A stretch of DNA of 37,011 nucleotides from an uncultured Schlesneria sp. GTDB lineage: Bacteria > Planctomycetota > Planctomycetia > Planctomycetales > Planctomycetaceae. The DNA is taken from NCBI GenBank assembly GCA_903834925.1, contig CAILLA010000067.1, forward strand, positions 1 to 37,011, written 5' to 3'. Made by a program: the position numbers and the translations under genes. Each line of letters starts with the position of its first letter. The first letter of the stretch is position 1. The notes beneath the pieces were generated by a model that saw only the letters and a program-made list of their open reading frames with translations, was not told the DNA's origin and ran no database searches. This document shows, in pieces, positions 19,807-36,744 of this stretch.

Positions 19807-20839
19807 TCATTCACACGGAACCGACTCAATTATACTCGCAGTCGACTCCGGGACCGAGACGATCCAGTTGACCTGATATCCGGCTGACGACAGAAGAGAC
19901 GACCACTCGGCTTGGCTCCGCTCGCGGCCTCCTGTAACCGCCAACATGTTGATGTCCGCCATCAACAATTTCTCCATATCCGGATCGACAGAGGCGACCG
20001 TCGTCGGCAACACGACCTCGATAATCAACAGTCTGCCGCCTGGCTTTGTCACAGCTCGGCAGTTCTTAAGAATGCGATGGGCGTTATTGTCATCGTATCC
20101 GTGTAGAACACTTTGCAGAATATAGGTGTCTGGACCTTGTGGGATCGTGTCAAGAAGATCTCCAGCCAGGAACTCGCATTGGTCCGCCAGACCGATGCTT
20201 TGGAACTTTGTTGCCGCAGAGGACACGGCCTGGCTTCGATCAACAAGAATTCCTCGCACATGCGGATTTGCTGTCAGAATTGCCGCCAGCAATCCGCCGC
20301 CACCTCCACCCAAATCTGCCACGACACGATCCTTGGAAAAGTCATGCGCCGCGACAAATGGGGACATGCTTGCCACTGTCGATTCCGCGAAGGCTTGATG
20401 AAAGATGGCTTGAGCATCTGGTGTCACAGACCAACGCGATTTCATGCCATCACGTTCTCTCGCCGATGTGGCTACCGGCCTGGACACAATCCGCAAGATA
20501 GGTCCACGAATCGGCCAACAGGTCGGCCCAGAAGATGACCGATCCCCAAACGGAATTCGGCACATTCCTGCGAAGAGGCTGACCAAACTGCGTTAGACAG
20601 AATCGCGCGGGTGCCACTTCAGCGACAATGCCAATACTCGCCAAGGCACGCATCATGCGATAGAGGGCGTCAGGATTGGACTTGGTGGCCAGCGCAATCT
20701 CGTCGAGATCTTTTTCAACATCACCAAGTACGTCAGCGATTCCAAGTTTCACCGCAGCAACCAATAACTTCCCTCGGAAGTACCCACGTGCCATATCACC
20801 GAGCGAAACTGGGTTGGCCGCGTCCACGAATTCACTCAT
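19807..20839 (-). pseudogene. SAM-dependent O-methyltransferase (acetylserotonin/hydroxyneurosporene type), frameshifted
   Basis: Two overlapping frames together make one full-length family member of about 342 residues. The first (start ATG 20839, with GAGG 7 bases before it; stop TGA at 20450-20452) encodes the N-terminal dimerisation/winged-helix domain (ARGYFRGKLLVAAVKLGIAD, DALYRMMRALASIGIV). The second, read to the stop at 19807, resumes near 20455-20480 with GMKSRWSVTPDAQAIFHQAF and contains the SAM site (VADLGGGGGGLLAAIL), LVDRSQAV and catalytic-type His in LQSVLHGYDD. The reading frame changes between about 20453 and 20480 (GAGAGAAC region). It is either a real frameshift mutation or a sequencing error. 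Residues are otherwise well conserved, so inactivation, if real, is recent. Confidence 0.8.
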
Positions 20840-20962
20840 CAAATGACCTCGATGCTCTGTTTATGAGTAACTCACTGAAAACTCGTCAAGACCCAAACTA
20901 TTCAGCACCGGGAGAAAAAGTTCAATGGCTCGCAAATCCAGGTGTATCGCACGAAATCCTGG

Positions 20963-20988
20963 TGAGTCGGGAGGCGTCAGCCCTCGGA
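20963..20988 (+). repeat. REP-like palindromic element, copy A
   Basis: A 26-base element starting TGAGTCGGGAGGC. It can fold as GGC-GTCA-GCC with flanking CGG/CCG-type pairing. It matches copy B (21060-21085) and copy C (21181-21206, opposite strand) at most positions; the shared core is GAG-Y-CGG...CGT-Y-AGCC...GGA. Confidence 0.7.
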
Positions 20989-21059
20989 CCGTCATGGCCG
21001 GTTCATGGGCGTCGGACGTTGGGATTAAAATACGGCAATCAATCGCGCGTTGACCGAGG

Positions 21060-21085
21060 CGAGCCGGGGTACGTTAGCCTGCGGA
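21060..21085 (+). repeat. REP-like palindromic element, copy B
   Basis: A 26-base element, CGAGCCGGGGTACGTTAGCC plus six bases. It aligns without gaps to copies A and C. The central GTTA could be a tetraloop. Confidence 0.7.
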
Positions 21086-21180
21086 TTCTTCGTCCGCGCT
21101 TTCGGCTATGGAATTAACCACGCGAACGCGGGGGTGGATAACGCAACACGAGGGGCCGTCTGTATTCGTCGAATAAAGAG

Positions 21181-21206
21181 TCCAAGGGCTAACGCCGTCC
21201 GGCTCA
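21181..21206 (-). repeat. REP-like palindromic element, copy C (inverted)
   Basis: Read on the minus strand it starts TGAGCCGGACGGCGTTAGCC and aligns without gaps to copies A and B. It is in the opposite orientation, as in a REP doublet, and lies just before the ars promoter. Confidence 0.7.
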
Positions 21207-21241
21207 GCTCTTGAATGTCGCTCGTTGTCCCGTTAAGCGAC

Positions 21242-21270
21242 TTGTGAAAAACACGATGTCGTGTAATAGT
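21242..21270 (+). promoter_or_regulatory. Candidate ars promoter with ArsR operator palindrome
   Basis: TTGTGA (21242-21247) and TAATAG (21264-21269) are 16 bases apart and could be -35/-10 elements. Almost the whole spacer is a perfect palindrome, ACACGA-TG-TCGTGT (21251-21264). An ArsR dimer bound there would block polymerase. GGGAG (21278-21282) then leads to the arsR ATG at 21288. Confidence 0.6.
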
Positions 21271-21287
21271 GTGTTTCGGGAGACGCT

Positions 21288-21692
21288 ATGAAGGCCAAGT
21301 CGCGAAATCAAATTGAAACCAAAACTCAAGCTGTATGCTGCGCCAAAATCGATTTGAAGCAACGGCCTCTTTTGTCCGTTGATCAGGCGAATGGGCTGGC
21401 GGGGGTATTCAAAGTACTTGCCAATGACACGCGCTTGCGACTGTTGCATGCGTTGGTGCGGGACGAAGAAGTATGTGTAAGTGACCTGGCTGCTTCGCTG
21501 GAAATGAAACCTCAGGCCGTTTCGAACCAACTCGCTCGGCTTTCGGATCTGGGAATCGTTTCGTCGCGTCGAGATGGAAATAGCATCCATTACCGTCTTG
21601 TCGATTTGTGCGTTCGATCACTGCTGGACCAAGGCTTGTGCCTGTTGGAAGAAGTCCGCAACAAACAACAGCCCCCGGCAAGAAGGCAATAA
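21288..21692 (+). CDS. arsR: ArsR/SmtB-family metalloregulatory repressor
   Basis: This 134-residue winged-helix repressor shows the family core: FKVLANDTRLRLLHALV, DEEVCVSDLAASLEMKPQAVSNQLARL (split DEEVCVSDLAASLEM and KPQAVSNQLARL, the recognition helix) and the wing SSRRDGNSIHYRL. Candidate thiolates are Cys17-Cys18 near the N-terminus and Cys63 in the ELCVCDL-like motif, where the second Cys of classical ArsR is Ser. The C-terminal Cys residues (VDLCVRSLLDQGLC) are a further possible site. It should repress the operon until As(III) or another soft metal binds. It stands first in arsR-aquaporin-arsC, with GGGAG 5 bases before the start, and the aquaporin gene begins 2 bases after its stop. 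Confidence 0.9.
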   Translation: MKAKSRNQIETKTQAVCCAKIDLKQRPLLSVDQANGLAGVFKVLANDTRLRLLHALVRDEEVCVSDLAASLEMKPQAVSNQLARLSDLGIVSSRRDGNSIHYRLVDLCVRSLLDQGLCLLEEVRNKQQPPARRQ

Positions 21693-21694
21693 CG

Positions 21695-22390
21695 ATGCTG
21701 AAGACCGAATCCAGAAAACTTTGTGCCGAGACGTTCGGTACGTACGTTCTGGTTTTTGCAGGAACCGGCGCGATCATTGTCAACGACGTCAGCGGTGGGG
21801 TTGTATCTCACGTCGGAATCGCATTCACATTCGGGTTAATTGTCCTGGCGATGATCTATGCCATCGGTGATGTTTCCGGGTGCCATTTGAACCCTGCGGT
21901 CACACTGGGGTTCTATGTTGCGGGACGATTTGAAGGACGCCATGTCTTACCTTACCTGATCAGTCAATGCCTCGGTGCAATTCTCGCCAGCATCACACTT
22001 CGATTAATGTTTCCGACTCAATTAACGCTCGGTGCAACGATACCCGCCGGAAATGCCATTCAGTCTTTTTTCCTGGAATTCATTCTGACATTGATTTTGA
22101 TGTTTGTGATTCTCAGCGTCTCGACCGGTTCAAAGGAGAAAGGTGCCCTGGCCGGTGTTGCGGTCGGATCGGTAATCGCACTGGAAGCACTATTTGGTGG
22201 TCCCATCAGTGGAGCGTCGATGAATCCAGCTCGGTCATTGGCACCCGCGATTGTCTCAATGAAGTTGGATTCGCTGTGGATCTACCTCACAGCACCTTTC
22301 CTTGGTGCCTGTTGCAGTGTTTTTGTCTGCCGTTGTGTGCAAGACTCTCACTGCTGTTGTCCGAGAAACGAAAAGGAGATTTGTTCGTGA
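21695..22390 (+). CDS. aqpS: Aquaporin/aquaglyceroporin (AqpS-like, arsenite channel)
   Basis: From ATG 21695 the protein is 231 residues with six hydrophobic segments and both MIP signatures: SGCHLNPAVT (about residue 66) and SGASMNPARS (about residue 177). The longer upstream frame overlaps arsR and is rejected. In Sinorhizobium meliloti an aquaglyceroporin (AqpS) in the same position between arsR and arsC lets arsenite made by ArsC leave the cell. The same gene order here supports that role. The C-terminal 28 residues contain eight Cys (ACC, CRC, HCCC, a final C), which is unusual. Its last four bases overlap the arsC start (GTGA). Confidence 0.9.
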   Translation: MLKTESRKLCAETFGTYVLVFAGTGAIIVNDVSGGVVSHVGIAFTFGLIVLAMIYAIGDVSGCHLNPAVTLGFYVAGRFEGRHVLPYLISQCLGAILASITLRLMFPTQLTLGATIPAGNAIQSFFLEFILTLILMFVILSVSTGSKEKGALAGVAVGSVIALEALFGGPISGASMNPARSLAPAIVSMKLDSLWIYLTAPFLGACCSVFVCRCVQDSHCCCPRNEKEICS

Positions 22391-22773
22391 AAAAAGTTGT
22401 GTTTGTCTGCGTGGAAAACTCGAACCGAAGTCAGATGGCCGAAGCGTTTGCCCGTATGCACGGAAGCGGTAAGGTCGAACCCTATAGTGCCGGATCTCGG
22501 CCATCGGGCCGAGTCAATCCGAAGGCGATCGAAGCGATGCGCGAGCTTGGCTACGATCTGACGACTCACGCGTCAAAGGGCCTGGATGCCTTCAACGGGA
22601 AGGAAGTCGAAGTGGCGATCACGATGGGGTGTGGTGACGAGTGTCCTCTGGTCCTCGCGAAGCAACGGTTAGATTGGCAGATCCCCGATCCTCGGGACAT
22701 GACACCCGAACAATTTCGCGAAGTTCGGAACCTGATCGAGAGTAAAGTGAAAGAATTGATTGCAACGCTTTAG
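22387..22773 (+). CDS. arsC: Arsenate reductase, low-molecular-weight phosphatase family
   Basis: Starting at GTG 22387 (AAGGAG 8 bases upstream), the protein has 128 residues. The phosphate-loop nucleophile is Cys8 in C-V-E-N-S-N-R-S-Q-M-A-E (CX5R with Arg14). A downstream pair Cys82/Cys86 in MGCGDECPL supplies the resolving thiols, resembling actinobacterial and other CGDxC ArsC enzymes rather than the Cys82/Cys89 spacing of S. aureus ArsC. WQIPDPRDMT matches the family's loop with the catalytic Asp. It reduces arsenate to arsenite in the cytoplasm, using thioredoxin or a low-molecular-weight thiol. It is the last gene of the operon, translationally coupled to the aquaporin. Confidence 0.93.
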   Translation: MKKVVFVCVENSNRSQMAEAFARMHGSGKVEPYSAGSRPSGRVNPKAIEAMRELGYDLTTHASKGLDAFNGKEVEVAITMGCGDECPLVLAKQRLDWQIPDPRDMTPEQFREVRNLIESKVKELIATL

Positions 22774-22872: not shown

Positions 22873-23259
22873 TCACTTGTCAGGTTTCAAGGACTTGCTT
22901 GCAGTTTGTACCGAAACCGTCGGACTCATACCTCTTGCGGCGTTTTCCGCCTTGCGTTTGGCAATTAACTCCTCACGTTTGCGAGCCTCTTTTTCGATTC
23001 GGGCACGACGTGCTTGTTTGGACATTTCCAGAGATTTCTGCTCAGCTGCGGCTTGATTCGCGGCTGCTCGCTGGCTTTCTGCGTGCATCACTCTTTGCTG
23101 ATACGCGTTCTGATGAATACGCTGGTGGTAAGATTCCGGCGAGAATCCAGCACCGCACAACAGATCGTCGTCCTGATAAAGGTCCTCGTTAGCGCTGAGT
23201 AAACTGGAAATCGATAACGTGACGACGATCGATGTCATTCCCATAAACCAGCGCAACAT
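22873..23259 (-). CDS. Small exported coiled-coil-like protein, unknown
   Basis: ATG 23259 has a good ribosome binding site (AGGGAG, 6 bases upstream) and opens with a signal peptide (L-R-W-F-M-G-M-T-S-I-V-V-T-L-S-I-S-S-L-L-S-A). The longer frame upstream is ignored. The mature part of about 105 residues is very rich in Ala, Glu, Lys, Arg and Gln (AESQRAAANQAAAEQKSLEM, RRARIEKEARKREELIAKRK), typical of a long helix or coiled coil, and contains a single Cys (DLLCGAGF). No family is recognised. It is convergent with the arsenic operon and follows the sulfatase gene by 120 bases. Confidence 0.6.
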   Translation of the reverse strand: MLRWFMGMTSIVVTLSISSLLSANEDLYQDDDLLCGAGFSPESYHQRIHQNAYQQRVMHAESQRAAANQAAAEQKSLEMSKQARRARIEKEARKREELIAKRKAENAARGMSPTVSVQTASKSLKPDK

Positions 23260-23379
23260 GACGATCTCCCTTTGTAAGCGGGTTCGAGCTTGCCAAGCCG
23301 CCAGTTTGATGCCAGATCGTTTTTCCGGGTTACACCGTGTTTTGGAAAAACTGGTTAACTCAGGGAGAATTGACCCCAT

Positions 23380-25931: not shown

Positions 25932-26854
25932 TATCGCTTCTCGCCGGTGTCGAGTAAGACTCCGATAGCAATCGCCATCCGTCGATCCAGTTTGCGAGAT
26001 CGGTCGTGAGTGCAGTCGAGCACGTACTTGTCCAGCAGCGTGAATTTGCGATTAAACTCACCCAGCAATTGCCCATCCTTGCCATCTTCGTCGACCTGAT
26101 GTATCACAAAGTTCGTTCGCAGCAATCCATAAAACGAACCGAGGAATCGCCTTAGAAGTGACAACAAAACGGAATCTTCACGGATGACGTACAGTTGTTT
26201 GCCATTGGCGTCGAATCCATCCCAACGCTTACGCAGCAAATTCGCCAGATAGTCTTTACGGAATCGGCCAATTTCCTGGCCTGTTTCATCCAGAACAGTA
26301 TACGTCGCCATCCGAATCGCGATTTTCTGATCTTGTAAAACGTCTAATACCTTCTGCTTCTTTTCTTCGTCGGAATAAAAGTGAATGTGCCGCTTGGGGG
26401 CCAGCCATTGATATGTGAAAATCGTGGCGATTGCAGCCAGGATAATTCCAATAATCAACACGGCGGCGGCGCCACCATCGCCAATTGTCGGATGAAGCGT
26501 GGAGATGGCGATGACGATGAGGACAACCGGCACGATCAGCGCGATCACAACGGCAAAGGCGGCAAGTAGGCTGCGAAGCACGTGTGTCGGACGGACGACG
26601 TACATGATGTTGTTGCCATCGTCATCACAAACATAATATTGAGTATTGATCGACAGATGCTTTTGATGCAGCAGGAACTTGTCGCGTTGAAACACCGGAT
26701 CATAACTCGACTCGTCGATCACATCGACTTCGACGTCTGCCTCGGGCAATTCAATGACCGATTTACATTGGCTGCATCGGACTTTTCGGCCAGCAAATTC
26801 ATCCTTCACTTGGAATTCCGCCTGACAAGCGGCGCAGGTAACGTCGATCGGCAT
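25931..26854 (-). CDS. MJ0042-type zinc ribbon fused to membrane and LURP-one/scramblase-like domains
   Basis: From ATG 26854 the protein (307 residues) opens with M-P-I-D-V-T-C-A-A-C and later R-C-S-Q-C, a CxxC...CxxC zinc ribbon of the MJ0042 type frequent in planctomycetes. Then comes a strand-rich segment (KFLLHQKHLSINTQYYVCDD), two hydrophobic helices (about residues 95-150), and a second strand-rich segment with IAIRMATYTVLDETGQEIG and LLGEFNRKFTLLDKYVLD. The outer segments together look like the 12-stranded barrel of LURP-one-related/phospholipid scramblase-like proteins, here interrupted by a membrane hairpin. Function is unknown; a membrane-lipid role is inferred. It is coupled by a TAATG overlap to the rhomboid gene. 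Confidence 0.65.
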   Translation of the reverse strand: MPIDVTCAACQAEFQVKDEFAGRKVRCSQCKSVIELPEADVEVDVIDESSYDPVFQRDKFLLHQKHLSINTQYYVCDDDGNNIMYVVRPTHVLRSLLAAFAVVIALIVPVVLIVIAISTLHPTIGDGGAAAVLIIGIILAAIATIFTYQWLAPKRHIHFYSDEEKKQKVLDVLQDQKIAIRMATYTVLDETGQEIGRFRKDYLANLLRKRWDGFDANGKQLYVIREDSVLLSLLRRFLGSFYGLLRTNFVIHQVDEDGKDGQLLGEFNRKFTLLDKYVLDCTHDRSRKLDRRMAIAIGVLLDTGEKR

Positions 26855-27161
26855 AAGTGGCCCAGTTCGTCTGAGGTGACATTCGACAGAGATGAAATTT
26901 GAAAAGATTGAACCCAATTTGACCATGTCTGGTCAAGTTGACGAATGAGAATTATCTCATTCTCACACATTACGACGAGATCCACTTTCTTCAGAGATTC
27001 TTCTCGCACTGGGGATTTCTGTAACCGTTATCAACTTGTTGCATCAAAGTTGCGTCGCTTCCGTGAACCAGACAATTCGACCGAATGTTGACGGCAGAAT
27101 TGCTGAATTGAAGTCTAAGAATTCACGTGCCCCACTTAATTTCTGCAAGGAGATTGTTTCT
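26855..27161. other. Intergenic region between divergent genes (307 bases)
   Basis: The region carries promoters for the zinc-ribbon/rhomboid pair (minus) and for the Met-rich lipoprotein (plus). A palindrome at 26943-26962 is listed separately, and AAGGAG at 27147-27152 is the lipoprotein's ribosome binding site. Confidence 0.5.
26943..26962. promoter_or_regulatory. Fur-box-like palindrome (candidate)
   Basis: GAATGAGA-ATTA-TCTCATTC is a perfect 8-bp inverted repeat around four bases and is AT-rich. It resembles Fur-family sites built from GATAAT/GAGAAT half sites. It lies between two divergent genes and could control either. The protein that binds cannot be told from sequence alone. Confidence 0.4.
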
Positions 27162-27416
27162 ATGAAGAGCTACACGATTACCGCCGCCGCTGCCAGCATT
27201 CTGTTCGGAGTTTGCCTTTTTGTCAGCGGATGTGGTACGTCCCAGCCGAATCAACCCAAAATGGAAACATCGGGCTCAATGATGTCTCCCGACTCGAAGA
27301 TGTCCGGGAGCATGATGTCGGATGACAAGATGTCCTCAACGAACAAGATGAGCGGTCCCAAAATGAACGGGATGTCAGACGGAAAAATGGACAAGGGCGA
27401 AGCAACACACAAGTAA
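27162..27416 (+). CDS. Methionine-rich lipoprotein (candidate oxidant scavenger)
   Basis: The protein has 84 residues. It starts M-K-S-Y-T-I-T-A-A-A-A-S-I-L-F-G and ends its signal peptide with a lipobox (V-S-G-C, Cys24), so the mature lipoprotein has 61 residues. Eleven of these are Met, mostly in short repeats of the kind SMMSPDSKMSG, SMMSDDKMSS, NKMSGPKMNG, with Ser, Lys, Asp and Gly between. AAGGAG lies 9 bases before ATG 27162. The upstream in-frame start at 27036 is rejected. Met-rich periplasmic proteins can absorb hypochlorite or bind Cu(I)/Ag(I). Its place upstream of msrP and the msrQ fusion favours the first idea. Pentapeptide MXKxx-repeat proteins are the nearest family I can name. 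Confidence 0.75.
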   Translation: MKSYTITAAAASILFGVCLFVSGCGTSQPNQPKMETSGSMMSPDSKMSGSMMSDDKMSSTNKMSGPKMNGMSDGKMDKGEATHK

Positions 27417-27552
27417 CCGGCTGACTCGCCTCGTGCGTGTCAAAACTTTTCACAATGGGCACGCTTAACAAGACCTTTTGCGGCCTCGTCAGCGTCCGCT
27501 ACTTCGACACATTGTTGTGTTTGCAAGCAAAAACCTTTTAAAGAGAAATTAA

Positions 27553-28383
27553 ATGAATTCTCTGCGTTCAAGCACATTCGCCGTTGGTTACCTGACGGTC
27601 GTTTTTGTAGGGAGCACGATTTGGTTGACAAATTCGCGACAGCCTGCTGCGTTTGCCGAAGGACGCAAAAGCGCGAAGTCAGACGTTAAGCGAAACGAAA
27701 GCCAGCCGATTGCCGTCGTTGAACTGTTCACCTCAGAAGGATGCAGCAGTTGCCCCTCAGCCGACGACAACCTTCGGCGAATAGAAAACGCTGCAACCAA
27801 GTTGGATCAAAAGGTATTCCCGCTCTCGTTCCACGTTGACTACTGGAACCGACTCGGCTGGAAGGATCCATTCAGCCAACCCGCGTTTTCTGAACGACAA
27901 CAGGAATATGCTGCAATTCTCAATAGCGATACATACACGCCTCAAATGATCGTGAATGGAATTACGGAATTTGTCGGATCGGATCGACGACTTTCGGGCC
28001 AGGCCATTCGTAAAGCCCTTGAGTCCCCTGTCAAACATACGATCGCGCTGTCGGCATTGGATAGCGATGATCCGCGACGACTTTCGTTTCGCTATCAAGT
28101 CAACAGCCTTCTCGCAAAACATCAGGGGACCGCAGACGAAGTGCTAAATATTGCCGTGGCAACAAACTTGGAATCCATCACCGTTGCCCGTGGCGAGAAC
28201 GGCGGTCGAAAGCTTTCACACGTCTGGGTTGTCAAAAACCTTCAAGTGCTTCCGCTGAATTCCCTGGAAGGGACTTTTAGAATTGATCAATCATTTGTGA
28301 AACAGAAGCGCTCTCGAATCGTCGCTTATGTCCAGTGTCGTTCGACTGGAGCGATCACTGGTGCGTCTGCGCTGGGCTTGTGA
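27553..28383 (+). CDS. DUF1223 exported thioredoxin-fold protein
   Basis: The 276-residue protein has an N-terminal signal (V-G-Y-L-T-V-V-F-V-G-S-T-I-W-L), then the DUF1223 signature VVELFTSEGCSSCPSADD with a C-S-S-C motif (Cys64, Cys67), the HVDYWNRLGWKDPFS segment and YTPQMIVNGITEFVGSD. DUF1223 has a thioredoxin-like fold and is secreted; its enzymatic role is unproven. The CxxC pair suggests thiol redox chemistry outside the cytoplasm. It follows the Met-rich lipoprotein gene by 136 bases and precedes msrP by 97 bases on the same strand, so a role in redox repair is plausible. AAGAGA precedes the ATG by 7 bases. Confidence 0.85.
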   Translation: MNSLRSSTFAVGYLTVVFVGSTIWLTNSRQPAAFAEGRKSAKSDVKRNESQPIAVVELFTSEGCSSCPSADDNLRRIENAATKLDQKVFPLSFHVDYWNRLGWKDPFSQPAFSERQQEYAAILNSDTYTPQMIVNGITEFVGSDRRLSGQAIRKALESPVKHTIALSALDSDDPRRLSFRYQVNSLLAKHQGTADEVLNIAVATNLESITVARGENGGRKLSHVWVVKNLQVLPLNSLEGTFRIDQSFVKQKRSRIVAYVQCRSTGAITGASALGL

Positions 28384-28480
28384 CATATTAGGCGGAAACG
28401 ATAGAACCGATCAGCACCGTGAAAAGCAAGTCCAACGCGAAGAATCAAGAGTCAATTCAACGTCATTAGCCGGATCGTGA

Positions 28481-29491
28481 GTGCTTCGTACTAGGAAATT
28501 TGACGTGGACGACATCCCAAAGATCTCCGAAGGCGAAATTACGCCACCTGCCGCTTACTTCAATCGTCGCAGTTTTTTGCGAGCGGGAGTTGCTGCCGGG
28601 AGTGCAATCGCCACTGGCTCCGTTTATCGATGGTTCAATCCCGCAAAAATGATTGACGCCGTCTCGACCAAGTCAGTGGAAATCGAGGCGAGTGTCGAAA
28701 CGGCCGATGAACTGCTCGCTCGCGGATGGCGTGTTAACGAGCCAGCCACGTCTGAACTGGGCATCTTGAACTACAATAACTTTTATGAGTTCACAACCCA
28801 GAAAGAAGCTGTCGCAACGGCGGCAAAAGATTTCAAAACGGATGGTTGGCACGTCATTATTGATGGCTTGGTCAATAAGCCTCGAACCTTCACAATCGAT
28901 GAACTGCATGAGATCAGTCCACCACAAGAACGCATCTATCGAATGCGCTGCGTTGAGGCATGGTCGATGGTGATTCCCTGGCTGGGCGTACCACTCGCGC
29001 ATCTGCTGGAGTCTGTTGAGCCAATGGTGAATGCCAAGTACGTTGCGTTTGAGACTTTATTCGACCCCGTTCGAATGCCGGGTCAAAAGACCGCCGCACT
29101 GGAATGGCCTTACATTGAAGGATTGAGACTCGACGAAGCGATGCACCCGTTGACTCTACTTGCGACCGGGCTTTACGGAAAGACGTTGCCACCGCAAGAC
29201 GGTGCCCCGATTCGATTGGTTGTCCCCTGGAAATATGGGTTCAAAGGGATCAAGTCAATTGTCCGGATAACGCTCGTAGCTGATCAGCCAAAGACCAGCT
29301 GGAGTCGGTATGCCCCGGGCGAATATGGCTTCTATGCGAACGTCAATCCAAATGTCGATCATCCACGCTGGAGCCAGGCGACGGAACAGCGGATCGGTGA
29401 ATCTGGCAGAAGGCAGACTTTGATGTTCAACGGCTATGAAGAACAAGTTGCGGATCTGTACTCGAATCTGAACTTAACGAAGTACTTCTAG
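28481..29491 (+). CDS. msrP: Protein-methionine-sulfoxide reductase catalytic subunit MsrP (YedY)
   Basis: This molybdopterin enzyme is exported by Tat (F-N-R-R-S-F-L-R-A, Arg29-30) and is 336 residues long. It shows the MsrP start ([20 protein letters not shown]), [42 protein letters not shown] with the Mo-ligand Cys157, and the C-terminal SLTKYF-like end (NLNLTKYF). It reduces methionine sulfoxide in periplasmic proteins with electrons from MsrQ. The start is GTG 28481; GTG 28505 has a better-placed AGGA, but homologs support the longer form. The MsrQ-like fusion gene lies 165 bases downstream and is the natural partner. Confidence 0.93.
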
Positions 29492-29656
29492 TCGTGGGAC
29501 CTGATGATGTCACGCGGATCACGAGTTAAACAGACTCTTGAAAAAGCCAAACGGGTATGACCGGAGCTGTCTCCCTGATTAGTGAAGCTTGCTTTGAAGT
29601 GATTTTGCGATGCATGCCTTGAACCAGTGCCACGATCGTTTTCATAGTAAACAAAC

Positions 29657-31441
29657 ATGAATCAACTTCAGTTCCTTCGATTGCTGGTAATTCTCAACGG
29701 CGCAGTTCCATTGCTGATGCTTGTTTGGGATGCATACCGTGGCCAGCTAGGCGTGAATTCCGTCAACTATGCGTTACATGTGACGGGCATCCTCTCCCTC
29801 GTGTTCCTGTTTCTTTCGCTGCTAATGACTCCGATGCGATGGGTTACGAAGTGGAATGGCTGGATCGCATTTCGGCGCGCCTTGGGACTGTACGGTTTTT
29901 TCTATTCCATCCTGCATGTCGCGATCTACGTCGGTTTTGATCGAGCGTTGAACCTGACGAGTACGTTCCACGAAATCGGGATTCGGCGATTTCTTCAAGT
30001 TGGTACTGCGGCTATTTTTTTGATGATCCCGCTCGCCGTCACGTCGACAAATTCGATGATTCGAGTCATGGGGACGGCACGATGGAAGAGTCTTCATCGA
30101 CTGGCCTACGTCGTAGCCATTCTGGGAGTGGTTCACTACTACATGCTGGTCAAATCCGATGTTCGGCAACCGCTGGCATTCGCTGGCGTTCTGTCGATCT
30201 TGTTTGGTGCTCGCTTCGTACATCATTACTTTGAGCTTCGTCGGGCCGCGAGAAAGCAATCGAAAACCCCATTGAGCCACGCTGTCGCGAACCTCGTTCA
30301 AAAAAGCTCAGAAGTGGCTACCATCGAATCCACAAAGTCCCGTCAACAGTGGAAAGGCGAACTCAAGGTTGCCGCGATCTTTCAGGAAACTCACGATGTC
30401 AAAACGTTTCGCCTTGTTCCAACAGACGAAGGACCTTTTCCGTTTACCTACATGCCGGGTCAGTTTCTCAACCTCCAGCTGACAATTGAAGGCAAACGGG
30501 TCAATCGGTCGTACACGATTGCATCTTCGCCAACTCGGAAAGACGCTTGTGAGCTTTCGATCAAGCGTGAGCCGATGGGTATCGCATCCCGTTTCATGCA
30601 CGATCAAGTCAACGTCGGAGACACTCTCAAGGTTTCAGGGCCTTCGGGCAGATTTGTCTTTACCGGCAAGGAATCTTCCGGTGTCCTATTGATCGGAGGC
30701 GGTGTTGGGATTACGCCAGTGATGTCCATCCTTCGCTTTCTAACGGATCGAGCATGGCCGGGTGAGATCTACTTTTTGGTCGTTGCCAAGACTGAGGAAG
30801 ATCTCATTTTTCGCGAAGAGATCGAGTGGCTGCAACGCCGGTTTCCTCAGCTAAAAGTCTGCGTCACCTTGACCCGTTGCCCTCAACAAAGCCTGTGGAA
30901 CGGCGAGCGAGGCCGAGTCACCGAGTCTTTATTGAGGCGTTTTGTTCCCGATCCGACTCGAGTTCCCGCCTATCTCTGCGGCCCTGATGAAATGATGGAT
31001 GCGACCAGAGACCTGCTTTTGAGGATGGGACTTCCTGATGACAAGATCAAAACAGAAGCGTTCGGGGCTAATAAAGGGAAGCGATTCTCAAAGGAAGCGA
31101 TTGAGCATTCAAATGGAACTCAGAAACTGGAAGAATCGAATGTTACGTCCGTGTCATCCTCATCAGAAGCCATGAATGACACAAGAGTCGTTTCTTTTGC
31201 TCGTTCGATTGTCTCGACCAATGTGATGTCAGATACAACGGTACTGGAGGCGGCGGAAGCATCGTCAATCGAACTCCCTTACGAATGCCGCTCGGGTATT
31301 TGCGGCCAATGCAAAACGCGTTTGATCGAAGGAGCTGTCGCAATGGATTGCGAAGACGCCCTGAGTGCATCCGAGAAGACAAACGGATGGATACTCGCCT
31401 GTCAGGCTCGGCCTCGCTCGAATCTGGTCGTTGATGCGTAG
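29657..31441 (+). CDS. msrQ: MsrQ-like heme membrane protein fused to ferredoxin reductase and 2Fe-2S ferredoxin
   Basis: Three modules lie in one 594-residue chain. Residues 1-200 are a ferric-reductase-like membrane domain with heme-type His87 (SILHVAIYV), His147 and His160 (SLHRLAYVVAILGVVHYYML); the 13-residue spacing equals that of E. coli MsrQ. Residues about 235-460 are an FAD/NAD(P)H reductase (VNRSYTIASSP, LLIGGGVGITPVMSIL, YLCGPDEMM). After a linker of about 40 residues comes a plant-type 2Fe-2S ferredoxin (Cys544, Cys549, Cys552, Cys582 in YECRSGICGQCKT...ILACQA). It should carry electrons from NAD(P)H through FAD, FeS and heme to MsrP. E. coli MsrQ lacks these modules and uses the separate flavin reductase Fre. 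Confidence 0.92.
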   Translation: MNQLQFLRLLVILNGAVPLLMLVWDAYRGQLGVNSVNYALHVTGILSLVFLFLSLLMTPMRWVTKWNGWIAFRRALGLYGFFYSILHVAIYVGFDRALNLTSTFHEIGIRRFLQVGTAAIFLMIPLAVTSTNSMIRVMGTARWKSLHRLAYVVAILGVVHYYMLVKSDVRQPLAFAGVLSILFGARFVHHYFELRRAARKQSKTPLSHAVANLVQKSSEVATIESTKSRQQWKGELKVAAIFQETHDVKTFRLVPTDEGPFPFTYMPGQFLNLQLTIEGKRVNRSYTIASSPTRKDACELSIKREPMGIASRFMHDQVNVGDTLKVSGPSGRFVFTGKESSGVLLIGGGVGITPVMSILRFLTDRAWPGEIYFLVVAKTEEDLIFREEIEWLQRRFPQLKVCVTLTRCPQQSLWNGERGRVTESLLRRFVPDPTRVPAYLCGPDEMMDATRDLLLRMGLPDDKIKTEAFGANKGKRFSKEAIEHSNGTQKLEESNVTSVSSSSEAMNDTRVVSFARSIVSTNVMSDTTVLEAAEASSIELPYECRSGICGQCKTRLIEGAVAMDCEDALSASEKTNGWILACQARPRSNLVVDA

Positions 31442-31567
31442 CGATCAACTTAACGGAGAATTCGAGCCTTAAGAAACATGAAGTCGGCAGTTCTTATTGA
31501 CTCGGTCCTTCTTTCGATGATTCATTCAAAAAACAAAATCGTCATTAATTCAATAGACCGGCATCCG

Positions 31568-31584
31568 GCCATCGCGACGATGGC
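31568..31584. repeat. 7-bp hairpin
   Basis: GCCATCG-CGA-CGATGGC forms a perfect 7-bp stem with a 3-base loop, 127 bases after the msrQ-fusion stop. No T-run follows, so it is a doubtful terminator. Confidence 0.35.
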
Positions 31585-31664
31585 TGGCATGAAAATAACT
31601 AACGCGATTCCCCTCGCCATGGAATTCAAGACATTCTAAGACGACAAAAAACTCACGACCGATA

Positions 31665-32246
31665 TCATTGAGTTCTCACCATGACACCTTCTTTGCCCCC
31701 TTTAGTTTCTTTCGAAGGCGAAGTCCGTCGCCAAGGTGCGACGAACCGTTTGCTTGAGTCACTCGTCGTTTCCGGTCCCGATTCCGACGAGGTGGGGGAG
31801 TCAAACGGAGTTGAAAACGCCGCATCTGGTTCAGGGCGGGCATTCGCCCCGGAACGGTCGGGTGGGGATCCTGTTTTGTCCTGGAGTTCGAGCCGAAGTG
31901 GCTGTTCAAGCTTAATTACAGGGAGTTTGTCATCTGTAAATTGCAGAAATCCTTCAATCTCCAGAGCGACTGCTTTATCCGACTTCGTAACGTGCGGCTT
32001 GATGACATTCAGTATCTTGCCCACAACCGCATCCGCCGTGGCTTCGCCTGAAGCATCAAAATCTAACGCGATCCCATCGGTACTGCAGGGTCGCTTAGGA
32101 GGCCCCTGACAAACAATTTGTTTGCGTTCTTCCTTTCCATCCGCTGTTTTTGTGATTTGATAAACAAAACAGCGAAGCGAGGCTCTTGGGGGATGAAACG
32201 GTGACAACCATTGGGACACTGCACTTCGATAAAACTCCGGGGACAC
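31665..32246 (-). CDS. Hypothetical protein, possibly decayed
   Basis: A 193-codon frame starts at GTG 32246 without a clear ribosome binding site. Its first 35 codons include a 26-base sequence repeated at 33350-33375. In the alternative frames this stretch reads as pieces of a zinc-ribbon-like protein: M-F-Y-C-P-L-C-R-H-D from 32307, then E-V-Q-C-P-N-G-C-H in a third frame. The middle (DFDASGEATADAVVGKILNVIKPHV, split DFDASGEATADAVV and GKILNVIKPHV) has coding-like composition. The last 70 residues are Ser/Pro-rich. It may be an intact orphan gene or a frameshifted zinc-ribbon protein whose N-terminus lies near 32307. No family is recognised. Confidence 0.35.
   Translation of the reverse strand: MSPEFYRSAVSQWLSPFHPPRASLRCFVYQITKTADGKEERKQIVCQGPPKRPCSTDGIALDFDASGEATADAVVGKILNVIKPHVTKSDKAVALEIEGFLQFTDDKLPVIKLEQPLRLELQDKTGSPPDRSGANARPEPDAAFSTPFDSPTSSESGPETTSDSSKRFVAPWRRTSPSKETKGGKEGVMVRTQ
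32202..32227. repeat. 26-base direct repeat, copy 1
   Basis: The 26 bases starting TGACAACCATTGGGACAC occur again exactly at 33350-33375, 1148 bases away. The two copies flank the small ORF and the broken toxin-antitoxin pair. Confidence 0.8.
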
Positions 32247-32554: not shown

Positions 32555-32752
32555 ATGACCACAGAAACGATCCCGAGTATCGATCAAGAACTAGATGACA
32601 TCCTCGCGAAGCTGTTGAAGGGAGAACGTCGTGATCCCGAAGCGGTACGTCTGGCCTGAGAACGCATGGACTGCATGCGAGAAGAGATTCAAAAAAGAGT
32701 CGGGATCGTCGATATCGCCGTTCCTGCTATTCGTGAACTACGCGACCGATGA
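32555..32752 (+). pseudogene. VapB-like antitoxin of a PIN pair, interrupted by TGA
   Basis: From ATG 32555 the frame reads DQELDDILAKLLKGERRDPE, then VRLA, then TGA (32657-32659), and continues as ERMDCMREEIQKRVGIVDIA and VPAIRELRDR to the TGA at 32750. The whole matches a family of PIN-associated antitoxins ending '..R.EI....GV.dIaVPaIRElRD'. The internal TGA, perhaps from CGA, breaks it at codon 35. The last bases overlap the toxin start (ATGA). Confidence 0.75.
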
Positions 32753-33167
32753 GTCTGTACGTTCTTGATTCTTCCGTGGCCGTGAAGTGGGCCATCCCTG
32801 AGATCGGGGCTGAAAAAGCACTTGCATTCCGGGACGACGTGTGGAACAAGATTCACGAGATTATCGCACCTGACGTCTTCCCTCAGAAGTTACTGATGCA
32901 CTTACGAAAGCAGAGCGGATGAAGGTCATTCCCATCGGGGATGCCAAGACGCACCTCCTCCCAATTCTTACCGCTATGCCAGACCTTCACCCTTACATTC
33001 CACTCATCACTCGTGCGGTGGACATCTCCTCTGCCACTCGAATCGCAATCACAGATTGCATTTTTGTCGCACTCGCTGAACGAGAAGGCTGTGAACTCGT
33101 GACAGCGGACGACAAACTCATGAGGAAGCTCCCAGGCTGTCCCATCGTTTCCATTTATTCTCTATGA
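32749..33167 (+). pseudogene. PIN-domain toxin (VapC-like), frameshifted
   Basis: The ATG at 32749 overlaps the antitoxin end. The first frame gives SLYVLDSSVAVKWAIPEIG (first catalytic Asp) to APDVFP, then diverges and stops at a TGA (32922-32924). One base appears to be missing near 32880-32886; in the shifted frame the protein resumes as EVTDALTKAERMKVIPIGDA with the conserved Glu, then ITDCIFVALAEREGCELVTA and DDKLMRKL with the remaining acidic residues, ending at 33167. Together they give a full-length PIN domain of about 139 residues. PIN toxins are RNases; this one should be inactive. Confidence 0.8.
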
Positions 33168-35411: not shown

Positions 35412-36212
35412 TTACCCCGCTGGAACTTCACTGGGGACCGCCTGCCAGAGAAACCCAAGTGCGCTTTCCACCCGGCTGCTGATAGGACGCCAGATGCGAA
35501 CAACATCCTCCGATGTCGGGCGCAGTTCGACTTCATCGTGACTCGACGGGAATGAGACGGTCACGTGCTGCGGTAAGGCATTCACCAGGTCGCGTGCCAC
35601 CGACGTTGTTTCGCTGGCCATTTCACGATATTCGGAACGAATGTCGGAAAAGACCGCCGTCAAGGTTTGTGAGACATCCAAAGTGGTGGAGATGGGGTCA
35701 ATGGCGGGAGCCGGTGAAACTCTCGCGACTTCGACCGAACTGCGTCCGGCCTGATTCGTCGCGAAGATCACGGCGAGTACCAAGCAGGCGGCAACGGATG
35801 CAACCGCCAGGACGCCCGAGCGACGTTGCGAATTGGAATCTTTTGATTTTGAGTGAAGGGCCGTTCGCGGCAGGCCGTGATGAGTCCTGCCATCAGGCTC
35901 CGAAACAGCAACTGTTAATGCGGGATCAATCAATTCAGCAAGAACCGAATCGAGCAGACCTGCCGGCGATGATACCTGGTCTCTTCCGGTTGCGAGAGCC
36001 TTCAGCTGTTGGTCAGTAAGACTGGTAAGAGCCTCAATTCCGACGCCTGAACGCCATGCGCCAATTGCCGTATCGAGCTGACGATGGATTTCCCAATCGC
36101 TTCGACAACTTTCGCATTCCAAAGTGTGTTTGAGAGCAAGAAACTCAAGTGGCTGTCGCGTTTCGACGCTGAGTTCCAAAGCCGCTTCAAATTCGATGCA
36201 GTTCATATCCAT
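35412..36212 (-). CDS. Membrane-bound anti-sigma factor, zinc-finger (ZAS) type
   Basis: The 266-residue protein carries an N-terminal His29-x3-Cys33-x2-Cys36 motif (KHTLECESC) preceded by Cys5, as in ZAS-domain anti-sigma factors, and a single membrane helix at about residues 130-152 (VLAVASVAACLVLAVIFAT). The C-terminal part is outside the cytoplasm (about 110 residues). It should hold the ECF sigma factor inactive until an envelope signal arrives. Its start (ATG 36212 or 36206) lies inside the last codons of the sigma gene in another frame, so the two are co-translated. Confidence 0.8.
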   Translation of the reverse strand: MDMNCIEFEAALELSVETRQPLEFLALKHTLECESCRSDWEIHRQLDTAIGAWRSGVGIEALTSLTDQQLKALATGRDQVSSPAGLLDSVLAELIDPALTVAVSEPDGRTHHGLPRTALHSKSKDSNSQRRSGVLAVASVAACLVLAVIFATNQAGRSSVEVARVSPAPAIDPISTTLDVSQTLTAVFSDIRSEYREMASETTSVARDLVNALPQHVTVSFPSSHDEVELRPTSEDVVRIWRPISSRVESALGFLWQAVPSEVPAG

Positions 36213-36744
36213 CCTTTGTCACAGCGCCGCGTTCGATCAGCAAGTCTGCCAATTCACGGCGAGCACGATGTAGCCAAGTCTTGATCGTTCCTTCCGGGCA
36301 TTTCATGATTCTGGCAACTTCAGAAACGCTCAGTTCCTGCTGATGAAACAATATAAAACAGGTTCGATAATCGTCGCGAATTTTCCCTAAAGCCAACTGA
36401 AGTTCTTCGGCCAGATCCAGCGTACCAAGCCGACTGTCCGGAGCAGCCGTATCAATCGCTGGATCAAAATTTCGGGATTGATTGCTTCGCAGAGACTGAT
36501 AAGTCCGACAGCGATTGACGGCGATTGTCAGCACCCACGGATTCAGCGGACGCTTTGGATCCCAATTTCGCAGGTGCCGAACAGCTCGAACAAGTGTCTG
36601 TTGTGCCACGTCCTCCGCATCTTCCCGATGTCTTAATTGCCGCAGACAAACCGAAAAAACCAGCCCTTGAAAACGCTCGACGAATTGCCGGATGGCCGAT
36701 TGGTCACCGGACAAACAACGTTCGGCGAGTTCACGGTCGTCCAC
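36187..36744 (-). CDS. ECF-type RNA polymerase sigma factor
   Basis: The 185-residue protein shows sigma-70 region 2 (FVERFQGLVFSVCLRQLRHR, EDAEDVAQQTLVRAVRHL, WVLTIAVNRCRTY) and region 4 (LGKIRDDYRTCFILFHQQEL, SVSEVARIMKCPEGTIKTWL, HRARREL), with nothing in between, as in ECF factors. It should direct RNA polymerase to a small regulon. The anti-sigma gene overlaps its 3' end, and a large secreted protein follows, so the target may be an envelope function. The short C-terminal extension (IERGAVTKDGYELHRI) overlaps the anti-sigma start. Confidence 0.93.
   Translation of the reverse strand: MDDRELAERCLSGDQSAIRQFVERFQGLVFSVCLRQLRHREDAEDVAQQTLVRAVRHLRNWDPKRPLNPWVLTIAVNRCRTYQSLRSNQSRNFDPAIDTAAPDSRLGTLDLAEELQLALGKIRDDYRTCFILFHQQELSVSEVARIMKCPEGTIKTWLHRARRELADLLIERGAVTKDGYELHRI

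Follow-up and report, generated by a model that had tools for sequence, protein, structure and literature searches.

A methionine-rich lipoprotein encoded with MsrP and an MsrQ-reductase-ferredoxin fusion in planctomycetes: a candidate oxidant-defence locus

The msrP locus of an uncultured Schlesneria

We analyzed a contig of 37,011 nucleotides (CAILLA010000067.1, referred to as a whole as the window) from the 9.0 Mb, 307-contig assembly GCA_903834925.1 of an uncultured Schlesneria sp. (Planctomycetota). Four forward-strand genes at 27162-31441 encode a methionine-rich lipoprotein, an exported DUF1223 protein, the methionine sulfoxide reductase MsrP, and a fusion of MsrQ with an FNR module and a [2Fe-2S] ferredoxin domain. 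The original prediction, made from the sequence of the window alone, had described these four co-directional genes as a candidate self-contained oxidant-defence locus, and we could confirm its coordinates and domains as well as its count of 11 methionines in the 61 residues of the mature lipoprotein. The features of the locus are as follows.

27020-27045, forward strand: motif TGTAAC-N15-GCATC, probably the promoter of the operon for a sigma factor of the extracytoplasmic function (ECF) type
27046-27161, forward strand: leader from the motif to the lipoprotein start, about 100 nt of it highly identical in four genus-level loci in which the sequence 5' of the motif has diverged
27162-27416, forward strand: methionine-rich lipoprotein, ATG start, 84 residues, lipobox VSGC; proposed membrane-tethered methionine oxidant sink
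27553-28383, forward strand: DUF1223 protein, exported, thioredoxin-fold (PF06764, 178.5 bits, cut-off 30.7, E 2.2e-52)
28481-29491, forward strand: MsrP, periplasmic molybdenum-dependent methionine sulfoxide reductase, GTG start (NF003767, 448.7 bits, cut-off 207)
29657-31441, forward strand: MsrQ-FNR-[2Fe-2S] fusion, 594 residues, with FAD_binding_6, NAD_binding_1 and Fer2 each above cut-off
29660-30265, forward strand: MsrQ (YedZ) domain of the fusion, residues 2-203 (NF003831, 151.7 bits, cut-off 130), with invariant R73, H87, H147 and H160
30365-31009, forward strand: FNR module of the fusion, FAD-binding (PF00970, residues 237-334) and then NAD(P)-binding (PF00175, residues 345-451), with invariant R284, Y286, G348, G349 and G351
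31211-31417, forward strand: plant-type [2Fe-2S] ferredoxin domain of the fusion (PF00111, residues 519-587), with invariant C544, C549, C552 and C582

Counted from the lipobox cysteine, a mature part with 11 or more methionines in 61 residues has a probability of 1.4e-7 at an assumed methionine background of 2.3%. The DUF1223 protein carries a CSSC (CxxC) motif and a signal-like N-terminus, both read off the sequence. Its solved relative is 2axo (E 3.7e-22), a fold that has been grouped as thioredoxin-like (PMC3091736). MsrP has 1xdq, annotated as "Bacterial Sulfite Oxidase", as its best solved relative (E 1.2e-97). A Tat-like signal (RRSFLRAG) is visible at its N-terminus, and the Tat models PF10518 (14 bits, cut-off 22.7) and TIGR01409 (13.9 bits, cut-off 16.7) stay below threshold. 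MsrP and MsrQ both pass the cut-offs of their equivalog models, and the MsrQ gene begins 165 bp 3' of msrP, as expected of members of the MsrPQ system. The gaps between the four genes measure 136, 97 and 165 bp. Scans for terminator-like sites in 26800-31800 (1 site, shuffles mean 5.0) and for sigma-70 promoters (2 sites, shuffles mean 3.7) gave nothing above chance.

Recurrence of the lipoprotein and the fusion beside one type of MsrP

In order to place the locus among its relatives, 397 genomes of the class were searched with the window MsrP (E<=1e-40), which gave 92 places in 90 genomes, the window included. By score and identity these were split into group A (44 places counting the window, with 55-85% identity across the matched part) and group B (48 places, mostly 42-54% identical to the window MsrP). 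Loci with flanks of up to 7 kb were fetched for all 43 other members of group A and for 17 of the 48 members of group B (L080-L096). Group B represents a second widespread group of MsrP-like proteins in planctomycetes, and its 17 fetched stretches contained no match to MsrQ, FNR or Fer2 at E<=1e-3.

Both strands of the 60 fetched loci (741,475 bases) were scanned for open reading frames (ORFs) that have a lipobox in their first 90 residues and, after it, 25-160 residues with at least 13% and at least 6 methionines. The scan yielded 18 ORFs, all in group A, all co-directional with msrP and at most 1.63 kb upstream of it; no such ORF was found away from the upstream regions of msrP in the same bases. 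The lipoprotein was thus present in 18 of the 43 group A loci (18 of the 41 with at least 800 bp of upstream sequence) and in 13 of 26 genera, three of the 18 being orthologues from relatives in the genus. In group B none of the 17 loci (211 kb) had one, 14 of them with at least 800 bp upstream. We conclude that the methionine-rich lipoprotein and MsrP form a real, recurrent unit that goes beyond chance.

The lipoproteins of different genera have little sequence likeness and a conserved composition. Pooled over 20 proteins, methionine accounts for 19.8%, lysine for 15.0%, aspartate for 11.1% and histidine for 0.1% of residues, with the length slightly inflated by L037 and L039, whose mature parts start at an earlier cysteine. 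The commonest spacing between methionines is 5, followed by 1. A looser methionine scan without the lipobox additionally gave ORFs in L047, L049, L062, L073, L082, L084 and L085, of which only that of L073 (25 methionines, Sec-like signal, 4.2 kb upstream) is likely to be real.

On a tree of MsrP (52 of 56 rows kept; L077, L078, L079 and L117 dropped), presence of the lipoprotein requires at least 11 changes, 6 of them forced by supported branches. Shuffled traits needed 16.2 changes on average, and 4 of 500 shuffles were as low as 11. The pairing is therefore clustered, yet it has been gained or lost repeatedly.

Within the genus, orthologues of the window lipoprotein occur in three relatives (62-69% identical), so that 4 of 15 genomes carry it (E<=1e-37), the other 11 showing nothing below E 0.05. 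The same four are those with a group A msrP among the 14 genomes searched for it, and each also has a DUF1223 protein above cut-off. They form one clade, so the co-occurrence may reflect a single event. The fifteenth genome (G397) has an MsrP of this type (75%) without the orthologous lipoprotein. In its place lies a larger, unrelated-looking ORF of 216 codons with 47 methionines (L258, 9-659), whose true start lies beyond the contig edge. It stops some 50-70 nt short of msrP, and MsrQ-FNR follow. Genomes of the genus with this MsrP thus have a methionine-rich ORF upstream in five of five cases, in two unlike kinds.

The fusion turned out to be the norm beside this type of MsrP. MsrQ, FNR and Fer2 are joined in a single frame in 31 of the 43 group A loci, or in 31 of the 37 in which the MsrQ gene is complete, which upholds the original description of a reductase-ferredoxin module fused to MsrQ. 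In the other loci, MsrQ-FNR ends at a contig edge (4), MsrQ stands alone (5), MsrQ is joined to Fer2 (L073), or no MsrQ was found (2, both near contig ends). Long ORFs in L056, L062 and L074, considered as possible MsrP-MsrQ fusions, were read as MsrQ ORFs whose early start makes them overlap msrP.

A scan of named genomes gave 578 confirmed matches, of which 80 were listed. Among these 80, 22 (L097-L118) span nearly the whole fusion, and in all 22 a match to msrP lies directly upstream, in two pieces in L117. Twelve of them (L099-L101, L105, L108, L111-L117) are additional to the fetched group A loci, and five of the twelve are metagenome-assembled genomes labelled as Proteobacteria (L100), Deltaproteobacteria (L105, L108) or Myxococcales (L111, L117). 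L099 has a methionine-rich lipoprotein, and L101 has a methionine-rich ORF without lipobox (42 methionines in 128 residues).

The window fusion was aligned with 20 of the 31 complete relatives. Across these 21 sequences R73, H87, H147, H160, the GGVG loop, R284/Y286 and the four cysteines C544/C549/C552/C582 are invariant. An arginine in place of the first haem histidine is a signature of the YedZ/STEAP families (PMC3591440). With R73 invariant alongside the three histidines, the fusion lacks the four haem histidines of NADPH oxidases (NOX) and long-form bacterial ferric reductases (bFRE). An AlphaFold model of the fusion (pLDDT 80.5, pTM 0.47) superimposed on phthalate dioxygenase reductase (2pia, TMt 0.79); the match to SpNOX (8qta, E 2.6e-21) had a poor overall superposition (rmsd 21.9).

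In L073 the ferredoxin domain is joined directly to MsrQ, with no FNR module (+949 to +1905 from msrP), and DUF1223 and a methionine-rich exported protein are encoded upstream. The direct join would fit a 2Fe-2S cluster that acts as the immediate donor to the haem. Related proteobacterial FNR-2Fe2S reductases were seen in L256, L257 and several of L122-L176. In two plasmid regions that were read they form part of longer proteins, with hydrogenase genes or a heavy-metal regulator close by, and several other loci have methionine-rich exported ORFs nearby.

The original prediction would have been refuted if the lipoprotein and DUF1223 did not accompany msrP in relatives, and this test was run. 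The lipoprotein did accompany it (18 of 43 loci in group A, none of 17 in group B), but DUF1223 adjoins msrP in just 7 of the 44 group A loci (the window, G152, G180, G186, G350, G307 and G115; 4 of them from the genus of the window), and the idea of an invariant set of four genes was rejected. The presence of DUF1223 at the msrP locus is specific to certain lineages. A cluster member of L065 at -1448 that matched DUF1223 is an 82-residue piece and was not counted. Near this msrP type, 7 of 50 loci have a member of a TlpA-like family and 4 of 50 have a redoxin, and both were absent from the 17 loci of group B; the two labels come from Pfam matches of one member each. Exported thioredoxin-fold proteins thus recur as a loose theme rather than as a fixed gene, and of the suggested role of DUF1223 as a thiol partner this general theme is what survives.

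A shared promoter-like motif and candidate regulators

Alignment of the regions upstream of the four genus-level loci revealed TGTAAC and GCATC as conserved elements around a diverged spacer. In 20 loci with methionine-rich proteins, GTAAC occurred in the last 300 bp of 8, and in 8 of these 8 it was followed by GCATC 15-16 nt further on. Taken alone, GTAAC in 8 of 20 upstream stretches is not significant (a mean of 4.7 and a maximum of 11 in shuffles); it is informative only in combination with the second element. The full motif was then counted before the first gene of 50 loci, the window included, leaving out near-copies (L045, L048), cut or partial loci (L071, L078, L079) and L117. The strict form TGTAAC-N15/16-GCATC was present in 10 of the 50 (shuffles mean 0.01, maximum 1), and 13 had it with one mismatch (shuffles mean 0.55, maximum 4). 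Without the four discovery loci the strict motif remained in 6 of 46, including L059, where it directly precedes msrP, and L111 from Myxococcales. The sharing of the motif among loci lends indirect support to a possible co-regulation under stress.

Strict copies also occur away from the msrP operons (26 in the scanned loci, repeats included). At genome level, sites of the motif outnumbered those of a reversed-pattern control in the genus relatives G152 (10 vs 0), G180 (10 vs 4) and G186 (12 vs 2) and in the distant genome G063 (7 vs 1). In G041 (6 vs 3), G134 (5 vs 3) and G042 (6 vs 4) the counts were little above the control. In the four genus genomes, inspection of 39 of 41 sites for ORFs of at least 70 residues within 300 nt showed the motif ahead of four recurring sets of genes: one is the present operon, one is a CMD/AhpD-like gene, and the other two encode small exported proteins. 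The CMD label comes from the copy in the genome of the window (PF02627, 25.7 bits, cut-off 23), and we take AhpD to belong to this family. One of the sets lies in the window:

23308-23334, reverse strand: second motif copy, TGTAAC-N16-GCATC, probable regulon site; strict sites are found upstream of related genes in three of three genus relatives examined
22873-23259, reverse strand: small exported protein of 128 residues, putative regulon member, beginning 48 nt after the motif, which guided the choice of start; it has counterparts in three genus relatives and no Pfam match at E<=0.01

A candidate for the sigma factor comes from G063. Here an ECF sigma gene that is divergent from the methionine-rich lipoprotein, and has a zf-HC2 protein as its partner, is preceded by the motif at a distance of 56 nt. 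In G134 the motif precedes an 84-residue protein that, by eye, resembles this zf-HC2 partner. The closest relative of the G063 sigma factor in the genome of the window is L219 (49%, E 5e-56; next 1e-25). A gene of G063 that resembles msrA by eye (L247) starts 284 nt beyond a copy of the motif, which may be chance.

Other regulators occupy other loci. Another ECF type was found at 6 of 50, in 5 cases with a small cysteine-rich partner without Pfam match, and a TetR regulator at 4 of 50. In L060, L062, L065 and L067 this TetR protein (Pfam label from L060) has a conserved CLC motif and is encoded directly upstream of the lipoprotein or msrP; it is possibly an electrophile or chlorine sensor. Taken together, this reads as a turnover of regulators around a constant core. 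The ECF/anti-sigma pair of the window itself (35412-36744, the anti-sigma recognized by eye) was rejected as the obvious regulator, with no strict motif in the 267 bp available before it. Its ECF protein falls into a loose cluster with the type found in L069, and no relative from L037-L039 joined the cluster. Elsewhere in the window, we noticed by eye a PIN-domain-like gene that is apparently split across two overlapping frames (32749-33167, forward strand), and methyltransferase, aquaporin-like and low-molecular-weight arsenate-reductase-like genes that look like an arsenic cluster (19807-22773).

A proposed methionine sink, its alternatives and known systems

We regard it as fairly probable that the locus encodes an ECF-controlled, membrane-anchored methionine sink that is recycled by MsrP with electrons from NAD(P)H. 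Envelope stress would free an ECF-type sigma factor, which would read the TGTAAC-N15-GCATC promoter. The lipoprotein would then hold closely set methionines, probably without a fixed structure, at the membrane. There they would be oxidized sacrificially by reactive chlorine or similar oxidants, and MsrP would reduce the methionine sulfoxides of the lipoprotein and also those of other envelope proteins. The fusion would re-reduce MsrP: its FAD would accept hydride from NAD(P)H in the cytosol, and its 2Fe-2S domain would split the hydride into single electrons, which would travel via the MsrQ haem across the membrane. Such a supply from NAD(P)H is predicted from the domain anatomy of the fusion. 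DUF1223 may serve as a lineage-specific exported thiol-redox helper. The computation establishes the genes, their domains and conserved cofactor residues, the recurrence in other genera and the common motif; the sink role, the path of the electrons, induction by oxidants, the choice of sigma factor and the part played by DUF1223 are proposals built on these results.

Several observations weigh against this proposal. The motif is missing from 40 of the 50 loci, and in the genome of the window its 9 sites compare with 5 of the reversed control. No motif precedes L219 at up to 2 mismatches, and the sigma factor therefore stays a candidate only. With gaps of 97-165 bp between its genes, the operon is a presumed one, and the placement of the domains in the model of the fusion is unsure. 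Among the 41 loci with sufficient sequence upstream, 23 lack a methionine-rich lipoprotein nearby, so MsrP and the fusion work without it there, and none was found at the five loci labelled Proteobacteria, Deltaproteobacteria or Myxococcales.

These last two findings speak for an alternative in which MsrP and the fusion serve general envelope repair, mending many proteins, with the lipoprotein as a co-regulated client or a structural component rather than a dedicated sink. We consider this explanation unlikely, because the lipoprotein, variable in sequence otherwise, holds on to about 20% methionine and to its position upstream of msrP, and a mere client has no need of such a methionine density.

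A buffer for copper(I) or silver, in which the lipoprotein would bind Cu(I) at the membrane and MsrP would keep the ligands reduced, appears improbable. MsrP of E. coli is induced by copper and maintains CusF (PMC9302797), the proteobacterial plasmid region mentioned above has a heavy-metal-responsive regulator, methionine-rich exported ORFs lie near several of the related FNR-2Fe2S loci, and the lipoproteins often have two methionines side by side (a spacing of 1 in 65 cases). However, the 20 lipoproteins contain 2 histidines in total, consecutive methionines are seldom spaced by 2 (7 cases) or 3 (17 cases) compared with the 88 cases of 5, and none of the four motif-linked gene sets of the genus genomes is a recognized copper gene, two of them being without recognized function.

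That the lipoprotein and DUF1223 merely lie next to MsrP without a functional relation is very improbable and for the lipoprotein already disfavoured: DUF1223 does adjoin msrP in only the 7 of 44 loci while 84 of the 397 class genomes carry it above cut-off, but all 18 lipoprotein ORFs are upstream of msrP with none elsewhere in 741 kb, and the 5 of 15 genus genomes with this MsrP all have an upstream methionine-rich ORF, the other 10 giving no lipoprotein match below E 0.06.

Returning to the methionine sink, the results can be drawn together more broadly, as a tentative reading to which we give a little less than an even chance. Planctomycetes, and in part myxobacteria, would possess a "methionine catalyst" at the membrane that is fuelled by NAD(P)H. 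A lipid-anchored methionine array, repeatedly re-invented in sequence, would take up reactive chlorine or peroxynitrite-like oxidants, and it would be regenerated, independently of the quinone pool, by MsrP through a transmembrane reductase that holds FAD, 2Fe-2S and haem in one chain. In part of the lineages, an apparently undescribed ECF/zf-HC2 system would read TGTAAC-N15/16-GCATC and its regulon would also take in the CMD/AhpD-like protein and the two small exported proteins. The motif offers a directly testable regulon and would point to reactive chlorine or similar oxidants as a stress that planctomycetes really face.

Among open-licence full texts, we found no paper in which a methionine-rich lipoprotein is brought together with MsrP and a fusion of MsrQ to a reductase, and none on such a combination in planctomycetes. 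The TGTAAC-N15/16-GCATC motif is newly noted here, and we found no description of the likely control switch. The fusion as such is not new, since flavinylation clusters are known to encode MsrQ-like proteins that carry NAD-binding domains at the C-terminus (PMC8238504) and a Fer2-bearing model of the ferric reductase domain (FRD; model M8) was listed in 2013 (PMC3591440), known to us without its domain order. Like bacterial NOX and long bFRE proteins such as SpNOX, the fusion joins a transmembrane haem domain to an FNR dehydrogenase domain; unlike them, it has the YedZ-type arginine for the first haem histidine, an msrP partner gene and a C-terminal 2Fe-2S domain. Reductases of the phthalate dioxygenase type (2pia; PaaE, GbcB) share the FAD, NAD and 2Fe-2S modules, and the PaaE and GbcB models match the fusion below their cut-offs, but the planctomycete module sits on a membrane haem domain. 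In E. coli, MsrQ likewise feeds MsrP, and the FNR-type flavin reductase Fre can feed MsrQ (PMC11031084, PMC5676040). There the proteins are separate and without 2Fe-2S, whereas the planctomycete version is one chain with a ferredoxin domain. A natural fusion of MsrQ, FNR and ferredoxin bears on the question of whether quinones or NAD(P)H reductases are the donors of MsrQ.

The methionine sink is likewise not new in kind. The mrpX-yedY1Z1 locus of Azospira suillum, controlled by SigF/NrsF, also combines a methionine-rich exported protein with MsrP and MsrQ under ECF control, and a sacrificial cycling of methionine has been proposed for it (PMC8315932, PMC4623255). The planctomycete locus has the MrpX-type arrangement, a methionine-rich exported protein encoded alongside MsrP and MsrQ, and differs in the lipid anchor, in the fusion of MsrQ to FNR and 2Fe-2S, and in the DUF1223 gene within the operon. 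In Caulobacter, a YedY gene belongs to the SigF regulon (PMC3511200). By the features of the SigF/ECF16 type, our system stands apart: the GTAA element is shared, the second element is GCATC and not CGAA, and the partner of the G063 sigma factor is zf-HC2 (DUF1109 was not searched for).

The nearest experimentally tested case that we found is bcrXQP of Brucella (BcrS/AbcS), in which a methionine-rich peptide, MsrQ and MsrP are encoded in one ECF-driven operon with a -35-like element GTAA; the operon is induced by HOCl and contributes to HOCl resistance (PMC8315932). It differs in its MXKDX repeat protein, separate MsrQ, second element CGAA and DUF1109 anti-sigma factor. The window lipoprotein did not match the MXKDX model TIGR02953 at E<=1, and of the 9 proteins scanned with it only those of L044 (25.8 bits) and L099 (17.7 bits) did, both below the cut-off of 41 bits. 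If the proposed sink is real, a sacrificial-methionine defence, so far tested in the two proteobacteria that we found, would extend to another phylum in a different build, with a membrane-tethered sink and a built-in supply of NAD(P)H electrons.

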